DNA of 64,000 nucleotides from the NCBI RefSeq assembly GCF_006352025.1, contig NZ_CP040936.1:3784001-3848000 (forward strand). The letters are read 5' to 3'. Position 1 is the first letter of the stretch. Each line of letters starts with the position of its first letter. Below, piece after piece: positions 3,208 through 7,399 of the stretch. The notes under the pieces were generated by a model that worked only from the letters and a program-made list of their open reading frames with translations, searched no databases and was not told the DNA's origin. The translations under genes were made by a program, and so were the position numbers. Source of the DNA: Hymenobacter sp. DG01. Lineage in GTDB: Bacteria > Bacteroidota > Bacteroidia > Cytophagales > Hymenobacteraceae.

Positions 3208-3380
3208 AAGGAATAGAGCAGTGTAGAAACGCTATATAGACAATTGTGCCAAGTCGTGCCGCTGACTTTGTGGTTCCTTCTTGAATGAAAAACGCCGCCC
3301 GGATTTTTCCAAGCGGCGCGGTTTCGGTTTGCCGCGTTGCAAGTTACGCTACGTTATGTTAGAATCGTGCTAAATGGGTG

Positions 3381-4559
3381 TTAAAAAGGCAAGTCATTAT
3401 CATCGTCTGTAGGAATATTTGCAGCATTATTTATTTTCATATATTCCCCTATTTTTATTTCCTGAAGTTTTAATGGTATTAAGAAGTGTTCTTTTGTTAA
3501 GTATAAATCTTCGATGGCATCGTATATTGATTCTCTTATCTTAAGATTTAATTGCTTGAAATCGTCCCACTCTTTTTCTATTCCATTTACTGTCATGTAA
3601 TATATGCTTAAATAAAACTTATTGTCATTCCTTACTAATGCAACTCTTTTATTTGAATACCTGTCTAATACACGAATATCTGCAACTTCTTTCAATTCGA
3701 TTATCTTGAAGTCGCCTAATAGTTCCGGTAAACTAATAATTGAAGTAGTAATTAATGATTTATAATTAATGTTTTCTTCTTTCAGTGATAGTAAAAACTC
3801 TATTACTCTTCTGAATTTAACAGCGCCTTTCGCTATTTCCTTTACATCAGTATTCTGAATTGAGGTCATGATTGCAGTTTGTATATCTGCTAGCTGACTA
3901 GACAAAAACTGAATTTGTTTTTCCTCATTGTGCTTTTGCCGTTGTTCAGCCAATAATCTTTGAAATAATCCTGACCATTGTTTTCGTAGATGATTCTCTA
4001 TGTCCTCAGATTTAGAAAATCCCTGAATGCTATTATTATCCGTTAATTGGCGAATGAAGTTTATAAATTCGAATATGTATACAGCTGTTTCTGGTTTTTC
4101 TATTGAAGGAAATTCTATCTTAGATAAAATATTTTTATTCTTATTTTTTTCATAGACTAAATGATCATGCATTACTCTATTGTCTATGAATGTAAATATT
4201 GGTATTTTATGTTCGATAGCCTTCATTACTTCTAGTTGTGTAATAGATAACTCTGATGGATTTTCTAAAAGTTTTTTATTGCGACTAGCATCCCTTACCT
4301 TTTCAATATCAATATATTCAAGCGCTTTGGGTATTATTTTGCCGCCAAATCTAGATCCTATGATAACGATAGCTACATCGCAGTTAGAAACTTCCTGTAC
4401 ACAGCTTGTGTGAGTGTGCATCCTAGGGTCATATAGAACATCTGAGTTTTCGCTGGTTATTGGATCATAGCCTAAGCTGGAACAAAAGTTTCTTAGCTGT
4501 GAACGTAGTAACCCTAAATCATAAGAAGTAGAAGAAACAAATATCTTAAGGCTGGCCAT
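3381..4559 (-). CDS. DUF4062 protein with SSB-like C-terminal tip
   Basis: This 392-residue protein begins with a DUF4062 domain: KIFVSST at residues 5-11, a helix with LLRSQLR, and the DVAIVIIGSRFGG strand-turn at 61-73, extending to about residue 190. DUF4062 is a Rossmann-like, TIR/SLOG-like N-terminal domain often found in proteins of suspected defence or signalling function. A probable coiled coil covers about 200-240 and an uncharacterised domain follows. The last residues, TDDDNDLPF, closely resemble the acidic tip of single-stranded DNA-binding protein (SSB). Sampled lines of the gene are roughly 22-43% G+C, far below its neighbours, which suggests horizontal acquisition. No partner gene of similar composition is adjacent, so it appears to act alone. 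The domain call is firm; the function is open. Confidence 0.8.
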   Translation of the reverse strand: MASLKIFVSSTSYDLGLLRSQLRNFCSSLGYDPITSENSDVLYDPRMHTHTSCVQEVSNCDVAIVIIGSRFGGKIIPKALEYIDIEKVRDASRNKKLLENPSELSITQLEVMKAIEHKIPIFTFIDNRVMHDHLVYEKNKNKNILSKIEFPSIEKPETAVYIFEFINFIRQLTDNNSIQGFSKSEDIENHLRKQWSGLFQRLLAEQRQKHNEEKQIQFLSSQLADIQTAIMTSIQNTDVKEIAKGAVKFRRVIEFLLSLKEENINYKSLITTSIISLPELLGDFKIIELKEVADIRVLDRYSNKRVALVRNDNKFYLSIYYMTVNGIEKEWDDFKQLNLKIRESIYDAIEDLYLTKEHFLIPLKLQEIKIGEYMKINNAANIPTDDDNDLPF

Positions 4560-4582: not shown

Positions 4583-4623
4583 AAATAAAAGAGAGGGCAA
4601 CATAATTGCCCTCTCTTTTATTT
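4583..4623 (-). terminator. Intrinsic terminator of nrdA
   Basis: Two 18-base arms are perfectly complementary around a five-base loop (CATAA), with A/T-rich ends giving a T run on either strand. It begins 17 bases beyond the nrdA stop codon and insulates nrdA from the DUF4062 gene. Confidence 0.9.
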
Positions 4624-4639
4624 GAATTTGCGAAAATAT

Positions 4640-7021
4640 TTACGAACCACACGCCTCGCAGGCGTCTGGATTATCCAGGGAGCAGGCCATGTCGGAGGCG
4701 TTCTGGGCCGATACGTTCAGCGGCTCCAGGGTCTCGGCGGCTTGCTTTTGCACCGTGAACTTGATGGCATCCACGGCAGCTTTGGTGCGCAGGTAGTACA
4801 TGCCGGTTTTCAGGCCCTTCTTCCAGCTGTGGAAGTGCATGCTGGTGAGCTTACCGAAGTTCACGTTCAGCACGTGCAGGTTCAGGCTCTGGCTCTGGCA
4901 GATGTACGCGCCGCGGTCGGCCGACATATCAATAATGCGGCGCTGCGAAATCTCCCACACCGTCTTGTACAAGTCCTTGATGTTCTGCGGAATGTTCGGG
5001 ATGTCCTGCACCGAGCCGTTGGCGGCAATGATGGCGTTCTTCATCTGGTCGTTCCACAGGCCCAGCTTCACCAGGTCCTTGAGCAGGTGCTTGTTCACCA
5101 CCATGAACTCCCCGCTCAGCACGCGGCGCACATAAATGTTGGAGGTGTAGGGCTCAAACGACTCGTTGTTACCCAGAATCTGGGCCGTAGAAGCTGTGGG
5201 CATGGGCGCTACCAGCAGGGAGTTACGTACGCCGTGCTCCATTACCTGAGCACGCAGCGTTTCCCAATCCCAGCGGCCCGACTCCGGCGTTACGCCCCAC
5301 ATATCGAACTGGAACTGGCCCTTGCTCAGCGGCGAGCCGGGGAAGGTTTCGTAGTGCCCGTCCTTGATGGCTAGGTCCTTGGAGGCCGTCATGGCCGCGA
5401 AGTAGATGGTCTCGAAGATATCCTTGTTCAGGCCCGCTGCCTCGTCGCTCTCGAAGGGCATGCGCAGGGCAATGAACGTATCGGCGAGCCCCTGCACGCC
5501 CAGCCCGATGGGGCGGTGGCGGCGGTTGCTGCGTTCAGCTTCGGCTACGGGGTAGTAGTTGATGTCGATGACCTTATTGAGGTTCATCGTGGCGTGGTAG
5601 GTTACCTCGTAGAGCTTCTGGTGGTCGAAGATCAGGTTACCGGCTTCGTCGGGGCGCACGTAGCGGGGCAGGGCCAACGAGGCCAGGTTGCACACGGCTA
5701 CCTCGTCCTTGTCGGTGTACTCCATAATCTCGGTGCACAAGTTCGACGACTTAATGGTACCGAGGTTTTTCTGGTTGCTCTTGTTGTTGGCGGCGTCCTT
5801 GAACAGCATGTAGGGCGTGCCGGTCTCGGTCTGGCTTTCCAGAATGGCAAACCACAGGTCCTGGGCCTTAATGGTTTTGCGGCCGCGGCCCTCACGCTCA
5901 TACTTCTGGTAGAGGCGCTCGAACTCCTCGCCGTAGCACTCATCGAGGCCGGGGCACTCGTTGGGGCACATCAGCGTCCAGTCGCCGTTGGCTTCCACGC
6001 GCTTCATGAACAGGTCGGGCGTCCAGAGGGCGTAGAACAAGTCGCGGGCGCGCATCTCCTCCTTGCCGTGGTTCTTTTTCAGGTCCAGGAAGTCGAAGAT
6101 ATCGGCGTGCCAAGGCTCCAGGTAAATAGCGAAAGCACCCTTGCGCTTGCCGCCGCCCTGGTCCACGTAGCGGGCCGTATCGTTGAACACCTTCAGCATG
6201 GGTGTGAGGCCGTTGGAGGTGCCGTTGGTGCCTTTGATGTAAGAGCCCGTGGCGCGCACGTTGTGCACGGCCAGGCCAATACCACCGGCGCTCTGCGAAA
6301 TCAGGGCGCAATTCTTCAGCGTGTCGTAAATGCCCTCAATCGAGTCATCCTTCATCGTGAGCAGGAAGCACGAGCTGAGCTGGGGCTTGGGCGTACCGGC
6401 ATTGAAGAGGGTAGGCGTAGCGTGGGTAAACCACCGCTCGCTCATCAGGTTATATGTTTCAATGGCCGACGCAATGTCTTCCTTGTGAATACCCACGGCC
6501 ACGCGCATCAGCATGTGCTGGGGCCGCTCTACTACCTTGCCATCGAGGCGCAGCAGGTAGGAGCGCTCCAGGGTCTTGAAGCCGAAGTAGTCGTAGTTGT
6601 AGTCCCGGTCGTAGATAATGGCCGAGTCGAGGGTAGCCGCGTGGGCATGCACGATTTCCCATACGTCCTGGGCAATCAGCGAGGCGTTTTCGCCCGTCTT
6701 GGGGTCCTCGTAGGTGTGCAGCCGCTTCATGGTGCTGCTGAACGACTTGCTGGTGACCTTGTGCAGGTTGCTCACGGCAATGCGCGCGGCCAGAATGGCG
6801 TAGTCGGGGTGCTTGGTCGTGAGCGAGGCCGCCGTTTCGGCTGCCAGGTTATCCAGCTCCACGGTAGTTACGCCGTCGTAAATGCCGTCGATAACCTTCT
6901 TGGCTACCTCAATCGGGGAAATGAAGTTCTGGTTGAGCCCGTAGCAGAGCTTTTCGATGCGGGCCGTGACTTTATCGAATTTCACGGACTCGCGGCGGCC
7001 GTCGCGTTTGATTACCAACAT
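4640..7021 (-). CDS. nrdA: Ribonucleoside-diphosphate reductase alpha subunit (class I)
   Basis: NrdA reduces ribonucleoside diphosphates to deoxyribonucleotides together with the radical-bearing NrdB. The 793-residue protein starts with an ATP-cone ([20 protein letters not shown], residues 4-23) for allosteric control. The barrel contains the [19 protein letters not shown] and SAGGIGL segments, the catalytic SNLCTE motif, and the [17 protein letters not shown] loop. The C-terminus carries the mobile redox pair in CEACGS. I chose the ATG at 7021 over an upstream one at 7084 because the family begins with a short strand like LVIKRDG. nrdB lies 3.7 kb away on the same strand with two unrelated genes between, so the two are not co-transcribed here. 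Confidence 0.97.
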
Positions 7022-7399
7022 AGGCGTAGCAGGTTGATGTGGTAGTAGAAGTATGAGTACGGCCGGAGCAGGCCAGCCAAACAATTCAGGTAAACACTCG
7101 GGCGCTTCCCTACCCCCGGAGGCAAGGTCAACGGTTCCGAAGATATCCGTCTGGAAAGGTCAGGACAAACCTATTCTTTGGAAGTTTTCCACATACCGCT
7201 AAAAGGCTAGTGCTTAGGCGGTTTTTGTTATTTGCACACGGCTATATAGCCGACTAAAACAGTTGGAAATTGAGTTGCTGATTTCCGGGAGAAGTGGTAT
7301 TGGCGGTGGCCGCCACCAGGGCCCTGGGCGAAAACAGAACCGGCCCGCTCCTTCGGGAGCAGGCCGGTTAGGCAGGCGCGGCAGCGGCAGGGTGCGGCG
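7022..7399 (-). promoter_or_regulatory. nrdA upstream region with -7 element and palindrome
   Basis: On the minus strand TAGGTTTG at 7166-7173 fits the Bacteroidetes -7 consensus TAnnTTTG, about 145 bases before the nrdA start. No clear -33 TTTG is at the expected distance. Further upstream, 7239-7252 is a perfect 14-base palindrome, CGGCTATATAGCCG, a possible operator. It does not match the NrdR box consensus well. The distal part holds the CotH gene's terminator. Confidence 0.45.
7335..7369 (-). terminator. Terminator of the CotH gene
   Basis: AACCGGCC-GCTCC pairs with GGAGC-GGCCGGTT around a TTCG loop, with a single mismatch in the stem, and is followed on the minus strand by GTTTTCG. It lies 30 bases beyond the CotH stop codon. 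Confidence 0.8.

Follow-up and report, generated by a model that had tools for sequence, protein, structure and literature searches.

We report that a DUF4062 protein encoded in a 64,000-nucleotide stretch of Hymenobacter sp. DG01 DNA (hereafter, the window) ends in a tip that is SSB-like in sequence. The tip recurs in the protein's family, is present throughout one clade of it, and in this genome consists of an octamer, DDDNDLPF, shared with an SSB and a DUF3127 protein of the host. Judged from these sequence comparisons, the tail is very probably a functional mimic of the host SSB tip. The protein that bears it is probably a TIR-like NADase phage-defence effector of the DUF4062 (Swarozyc) kind, and we tentatively favor an explanation in which the tail acts as both bait and trigger for the effector.

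A sequence-only reading of this DNA had proposed a DUF4062 gene with the tail TDDDNDLPF, and its coordinates, family and tail all held: an uninterrupted frame occupies the minus strand (Table 1), Pfam DUF4062 (PF13271) matches residues 5-86 (E 4.5e-16; 59.3 bits vs. a cut-off of 24.7), and the protein terminates in NIPTDDDNDLPF-stop. The SSB domain PF00436 had no Pfam match in the protein up to E 1, indicating that it is not an SSB and may instead act via its SSB-like tip. NCBIfam and PADLOC returned 0 matches to the protein, and a PDB sequence search gave nothing meaningful (one row at E 0.27). The gene is AT-rich, as had been noted, with a G+C content of 31.5% vs. 59.3% for the window. When DNA around the gene was searched in 31 genomes of the genus, its own included, with the best 9 candidates scored per genome, matches occurred in 30 of 31 (G701 had none), mostly over the gene on its upstream side, which we take from its sequence to be nrdA; the DUF4062 interval itself had no DNA match among the matches listed in the 30 other genomes. 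In the nearest relative (G708; nrdA 94%), an unrelated 153-aa gene occupies the same slot behind nrdA. The missing congeneric match and the different gene in G708 make the DUF4062 gene look like one-gene cargo, and the slot may be a variable cargo site. Between nrdA and the gene lies an inverted repeat, 41 bases long and T-rich at one end, detected as a self-match on the opposite strand, which is probably the nrdA terminator; the DUF4062 gene is therefore likely to be a separate transcription unit. Downstream of it is a 200-aa lipoprotein-like gene, and no defence gene was recognized among these adjoining neighbors, as judged from sequence. Two tailed relatives, at L014 and L020, do adjoin defence-type genes. 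Beside the gene, a G+C-rich stretch of ~40-57 bp has matches at multiple positions in many genomes of the genus, which suggests a small repeat element or a shared terminator. The genome also encodes a second, different DUF4062 protein of 363 aa, which ends SFHSMMLPF, that is, in -LPF without acidic residues.

Table 1. Positions and supporting evidence for the DUF4062 gene, its parts and surroundings, and tailed proteins elsewhere (window positions unless a locus is given).
Feature	Location	Strand	Remarks
CDS, DUF4062 TIR-like protein, 392 aa, SSB-like C-terminal tip	3381..4559	minus	ATG at 4559; stop codon 3381-3383
Predicted TIR-like/nucleoside-deoxyribosyltransferase (NDT)-like domain, residues 1-181	4017..4559	minus	
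E110, presumed catalytic glutamate	4230..4232	minus	helix after strand C; E in 176/176 aligned family proteins
Long stalk helix, residues 184-235	3855..4010	minus	AF2 model
C-terminal auxiliary (putative sensor) domain, residues 237-380	3420..3851	minus	helices and strands; AF2 model; PF26934
Low-confidence tail, residues 381-392	3384..3419	minus	AF2 pLDDT
SSB-like tip DDDNDLPF, residues 385-392	3384..3407	minus	acidic residues, then [ILV]-P-F at extreme C-terminus
ORF taken to be nrdA	4640-7084		
Inverted repeat, probable nrdA terminator	4583-4623		
G+C-rich stretch	3282-3341		
Second DUF4062 gene, own genome	L001:715-1803		C1, near 4722738
Gene behind nrdA in G708	L269:918-1379		
DUF3127 protein, own genome	L061:1504-1923		C1:989378
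PD-T4-6-like Ser/Thr kinase, Paraliomyxa miuraensis	L069:157-1512		SSB-like tip; adjoins L018, to which it is unrelated
DUF4062 protein, Paraliomyxa miuraensis	L018:9944-11182		SSB-like tip; adjoins L069, to which it is unrelated
DarT, Paenibacillus terrae	L073:1504-2499		tail KEDDDLPF
Caspase, Bacteroidota	L140 (full gene L299)		PF00656 2e-12; PADLOC match none; no defence gene noticed beside it
TIR_2 protein, Bacteroidota	L212		3e-11; behind type IIG restriction enzyme
TIR/NDT-like protein, Bacteroidota	L169		PADLOC TIR effector 1e-7; Pfam NDT below cut-off; with Kiwa KwaB
Abi_C protein, Bacteroidota	L178		24.1 bits, cut-off 24; with PDC-S39, PD-Lambda-3_B, AbiTii
DnaB helicase, Bacteroidota (G012)	L110		tail NDFDDDDDFPF, Phe replacing Leu/Ile
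ERF annealing protein, Bacteroidota	L152		
Protein without match, Bacteroidota	L157		
Ferredoxin-type protein, Bacteroidota	L185		tail perhaps chance
Protease-inhibitor-type lipoprotein, Bacteroidota	L128		tail perhaps chance
Frames doubtful as genes, Bacteroidota	L113, L193		
DUF6511 proteins, Pseudomonadota	L348, L351, L355, L360; L354		first four assigned by Pfam, L354 by its similarity to L339 (shorter, DUF6511 by Pfam)
ArdC, Pseudomonadota	L329		Pfam
Frames doubtful as genes, Pseudomonadota	L333, L368		L368 without Pfam match
333-aa protein, Pseudomonadota	L359		without match in Pfam or PADLOC; resembles nucleases and Abi proteins by eye only

According to the available text of a preprint of May 2026 (PMC13174449), DUF4062 is a TIR-like NADase that acts in phage defence together with a C-terminal sensor domain (Swarozyc; KpSwz), and about 20% of Swarozyc genes lie in defence islands, with over half near a defence gene. 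By this analogy, the earlier suggestion that the gene encodes a defence factor with a TIR-like domain is probable. The protein shares with KpSwz a DUF4062 TIR-like domain with a conserved glutamate, a helical stalk, a C-terminal auxiliary domain, its organization as a single gene and its patchy distribution. The DUF4062 part is modeled with a TIR/NDT-like fold, the TIR half filling the VIA-align list. The auxiliary domain is modeled as helices and strands, and PF26934 is a precomputed annotation on all 120 listed homologues; by analogy with KpSwz, it presumably acts as the sensor. Likewise, the NADase would be switched on by phage infection and would lead to abortive infection. The two proteins differ in that the trigger of KpSwz is the phage portal and in that its glutamate is E97; E110 would be the equivalent residue, as placed by position and not by alignment, and the different numbering suggests that our protein perhaps belongs to another subfamily. 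The tail follows the auxiliary domain after a short linker. AF2 draws a short helix at residues 385-389, with block pLDDT values of 60 (residues 381-390) and 47 (residues 391-392) and values below 50 for residues 389-392.

The SSB tip (SSB-Ct, of the DDDIPF or DDDLPF type) is described as the docking site of many SSB partners. The tail of the DUF4062 protein is like the bacterial SSB-Ct in placing acidic-[ILV]-Pro-Phe at the extreme C-terminus and, unlike in SSB proteins, the tip is carried by a predicted enzyme. Among the best 120 of 1275 homologues found, query included, there are 13 -PF ends, every one of the acidic-[ILV]-PF form, where the amino acid composition of the final ten residues predicts 0.025. 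A second search used a profile of the 13 tipped proteins and is hence tip-biased; it raised the total to 176 family proteins with 15 -PF ends, the query's among them and each SSB-like. The tip was present in three of 23 loci from named genomes, namely L014 (a gammaproteobacterial MAG; protein P0140), L018 (Paraliomyxa miuraensis) and L020 (an uncultured Bacteroidales), with L021 and L026 ending prematurely, and in none of eight viral loci. In a FastTree tree built on the columns of residues 1-258, thus excluding sensor and tail, and comprising 193 rows (the 176 proteins plus non-identical loci, with L021-L024, L026 and L027 omitted), 17 rows are tipped. Their distribution requires at least seven changes (gains or losses), at least four of them forced by starred branches, vs. 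16.5 for shuffled labels. One starred clade of nine rows, all from the first search, is tipped in 9/9, and in the query's clade none of 12 other rows is tipped. The sequence-only reading had held that homologues lacking the tail would render the resemblance coincidental. The tail is indeed absent from 161 of the 176 proteins, which means that the family can carry out its general function in its absence, yet repeated gain, the 9/9 clade and the match to host SSB-type tails argue that the resemblance is not coincidental. In the 161 tipless members, D/E makes up 34% of the last ten residues vs. 14% of the body, with at least five acids among those ten in 59 members; acidic C-termini may therefore be the raw material from which the tip evolves. 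The family is rare, so a family-wide genome census yields little: two of 395 Bacteroidota genomes matched at E <= 1e-20 (our own and one weak partial match), a search of 282 genomes from the phylum of Paraliomyxa matched that organism alone at E <= 1e-50, and plasmid and phage collections gave distant partial matches only (four Enterococcus plasmid records and two Acinetobacter phage records).

The tip also matches its host. A scan of both strands of the 5.04-Mb genome finds D-[hydrophobic]-P-F-stop at three sites, each ending a gene of a recognized family, vs. 11 occurrences of the pattern read backwards. Besides the query, these are an SSB (second contig, 306 kb) and a DUF3127 protein (main contig), and all three end in DDDNDLPF. 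The chromosomal SSB of the genome ends ELDQLPF. Among the 97 SSB- or DUF3127-like tails collected in the survey below, DDDNDLPF occurs in three, twice in this genome and once in a congener (two of 74 genomes). Over the last nine codons, stop included, the query differs from the SSB and DUF3127 genes at 7 and 6 of 27 bases, respectively, which alter 7 and 6 of 8 tail codons synonymously with 0 amino acid changes. Recent capture of an ssb 3′ end was rejected on this basis; any copying must be old, with the amino acids kept. In Paraliomyxa miuraensis, the DUF4062 tail IPEPSDDDIPF compares with a host SSB tail of IPEPADDDIPF. The match fails for L020, which ends in -VPF while the one tipped SSB and a DUF3127-like protein of its host end in -LPF. 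We then compared suffix matches to the own genome with those to random genomes out of 74 (20,000 draws, relatedness ignored). For four immune-type proteins (the query, L212, L140 and L169), the summed match was 25 in the own genomes vs. a mean of 19.1, a value reached in 24 of 20,000 draws; with L152, L157 and L110 added, the sum was 39 vs. 31.2, reached in 0 of 20,000. The signal comes mainly from the query, matched as well by two of 74 genomes, own included, and from the TIR protein L212 (1/74), whose last 8 residues recur on a DUF3127-like tail of the genome that encodes it. L152 and L157 fall in between (19/74 each), and L140 (65/74), L169 (71/74) and L110 (74/74) are uninformative. The single SSB found in the host of L178 lacks a tip, which counts against a simple host-match rule, and L178 was excluded from the test.

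To see which other proteins end in this way, we surveyed 80 Bacteroidota genomes with the pattern [DN]-D-[hydrophobic]-P-F-stop and read all sites. There were 139 sites vs. 56 for the backwards pattern; 10 proved to be TGG and 129 true stops, 109 of which end frames of 100 or more codons. In the same genomes, a control pattern ending in -FP gave 23 sites, 14 true stops and a single, spurious-looking frame over 100 codons, as compared to the 109 for -PF. We reject a chance origin of the tip on the tail statistics, the tree, the host match and this control. The sequence-only reading is supported in part: its claim of an SSB-like acidic tip is borne out, and the sensing or hijacking of the SSB network that it proposed is hypothetical. 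Of the 109 frames, 97 resemble SSB or DUF3127 seeds chosen by eye (DUF3127 being Pfam-confirmed only for L061 and L067), and five of the 12 others have immune-type domains (DUF4062, TIR, TIR-like, Abi_C and caspase; Table 1). The stretch that holds L169 and KwaB presumably also carries an integrase-like gene, as judged from its sequence. A looser pattern was applied to eight hosts of known relatives, where 42 of 91 sites were read. There, the tailed DUF4062 gene of Paraliomyxa miuraensis proved to be directly convergent with the gene of a PD-T4-6-like Ser/Thr kinase, an unrelated protein that has a Gly/Arg-rich linker and ends in EVPDDDIPF. DarT of Paenibacillus terrae was considered as a second clear case: among the best 120 of 171 homologues (P0177-P0296), 71 end in acidic-[ILVMF]-PF and 81 in -PF. 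Its end closely follows a conserved LAY-strand and may be part of the fold, and we treat it as a lead only. Two related proteins of ~172-176 aa from the same organism, L236 and L237, end in NPDDDLPF and are possibly unrecognized ssDNA-binding proteins; L236 has no Pfam or PADLOC match. SSB-like tails on DUF3127 or DUF3127-like proteins (L061, L067, L102 and others) were seen in many Bacteroidota genomes by the tail search, which selects for the tail; such proteins may share the SSB hub, and the family is hardly named in the literature searched.

A second phylum gave a different picture. We surveyed 65 genomes of Pseudomonadota, the phylum of L014's host, with the pattern D-D-[hydrophobic]-P-F-stop, and found 84 sites (9 TGG and 75 true stops), of which 63 lie in frames of 100 or more. 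SSB accounts for 54 of these 63 (one SSB being counted twice through two sites 40 bases apart). The nine non-SSB ORFs are mainly DUF6511 and ArdC, and none is clearly immune. The enrichment of immune effectors among tailed ORFs was thus not replicated in these 65 genomes, where mobile-element-type proteins are tailed instead; DUF6511 is of a phage-borne or mobile-element type. The DUF6511 proteins (L339 included) end in DD[IV]PF and are possible SSB-tip mimics.

How might such a tail serve an effector? In the explanation that we tentatively prefer, bait and trigger, the tail would enter the pocket in which SSB-partner proteins bind the SSB tip. Takers of the bait could be phage proteins that need the host SSB tip, such as annealing recombinases, or SSB partners crowded on phage replication intermediates. 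Binding of the tail would gather several effector copies and free their TIR domains from an autoinhibited arrangement, and the freed domains would destroy NAD+ and bring about abortive infection. Several observations count against this reading. KpSwz is triggered by the phage portal through its auxiliary domain rather than by SSB, according to the available preprint text (PMC13174449), and the acidic ends of tipless members suggest that an acidic tail may serve otherwise. The host match fails for L020 and for the host of L178, and for L140 and L169 most genomes match as well as the host does. Some of the immune labels are weak, since Abi_C in L178 exceeds its cut-off by 0.1 bit, L169 falls below the Pfam cut-off and the caspase has no PADLOC match. 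Finally, the gene lies next to nrdA with no adjoining defence gene recognized, and none of the nine tailed Pseudomonadota ORFs is clearly immune.

The nearest rival is that the tail is an address tag, which parks the effector on host SSB partners at forks or repair sites while the auxiliary domain senses the trigger, e.g., a phage structural protein. We consider this possible, if less probable than bait and trigger, and the present data do not separate the two. Tails on mobile-element-type proteins (ERF L152, ArdC L329 and five DUF6511 proteins) fit the address tag well, docking on host replication proteins being their natural reading, as does the sensing of the portal by the auxiliary domain of KpSwz in the preprint text at hand (PMC13174449). 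It leaves unexplained why the tip occurs in a minority of the family and why tails occur on several unrelated immune-type kinds. The tail could instead be a lock, binding the protein's own auxiliary or TIR domain (intra- or intermolecularly) and keeping it inactive until SSB partners or ssDNA complexes remove it. Acidic ends are common in the family, and the C-terminus of KpSwz is described in the accessible text as tucked under its own domain (PMC13174449), yet we regard a lock as unlikely, given the pLDDT below 50 for residues 389-392 and because a lock could work without being identical to host SSB-type tails.

A generic acidic tail, for solubility or for repelling nucleic acid, with -LPF as a chance embellishment, would suit the 161 family proteins without -PF, many of them acidic-ended, but it is strongly disfavored by the excess of -PF ends, all SSB-like (13 vs. 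0.025 expected), by the fully tipped clade, by an octamer that equals host tails with synonymous differences only, and by the -FP control with its one doubtful frame vs. 109. Identical octamers within one genome could also mean that recombination with an ssb-type gene brought in the tail as a functionless passenger; we consider this the least probable reading of all, since 7 and 6 of 8 codons have changed synonymously and every amino acid has been kept.

Other defence systems, including AbpAB, Retron-Eco8 and Hna, are reported to be triggered by phage SSB or by SSB bound to ssDNA (PMC10732053, PMC12887533, PMC13381803). The DUF4062 protein would resemble these, as well as Hachiman and Nhi, in tying defence to SSB-ssDNA biology, and, in contrast to such phage-SSB-activated systems as they are described there, it bears a host-SSB-like tip itself. 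The main text of the KpSwz preprint contains no mention of SSB, single-stranded or acidic in the part available (PMC13174449), and a search of open-licence PubMed Central (titles and abstract starts) found no SSB-Ct or SSB-like tail tied to anti-phage defence. DUF4062 defence and the SSB tip are each known; in open-licence PubMed Central, our searches met no account of their fusion, of the host matching or of such tails recurring across unrelated effectors.

It is conceivable, and we hold this a little more tentatively than bait and trigger itself, that SSB-tail mimicry is a portable immunity module, at least in Bacteroidota, which reads infection as theft or crowding of the SSB hub. Its scope would take in the DUF4062 NADase, TIR, TIR-like, caspase and Abi_C proteins, the PD-T4-6-like kinase and perhaps DarT, each having acquired the tip of its host lineage independently. 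To our knowledge, the triggers of many TIR, caspase and Abi effectors are not known, and a host-matched docking motif on several effectors offers a testable sensing route, the SSB hub. It also offers a way of picking candidates, by listing the non-SSB proteins that end like their host's SSB. In plants, integrated decoys place a piece of a pathogen's host target in fusion with an immune receptor; here it is a short linear motif, not a domain, that is fused, and the target is putative. If true, the proposal would explain how a one-gene system can watch ssDNA handling, a process that phages can hardly avoid, and portable SSB-tail mimicry would be the short-motif counterpart of plant integrated decoys.
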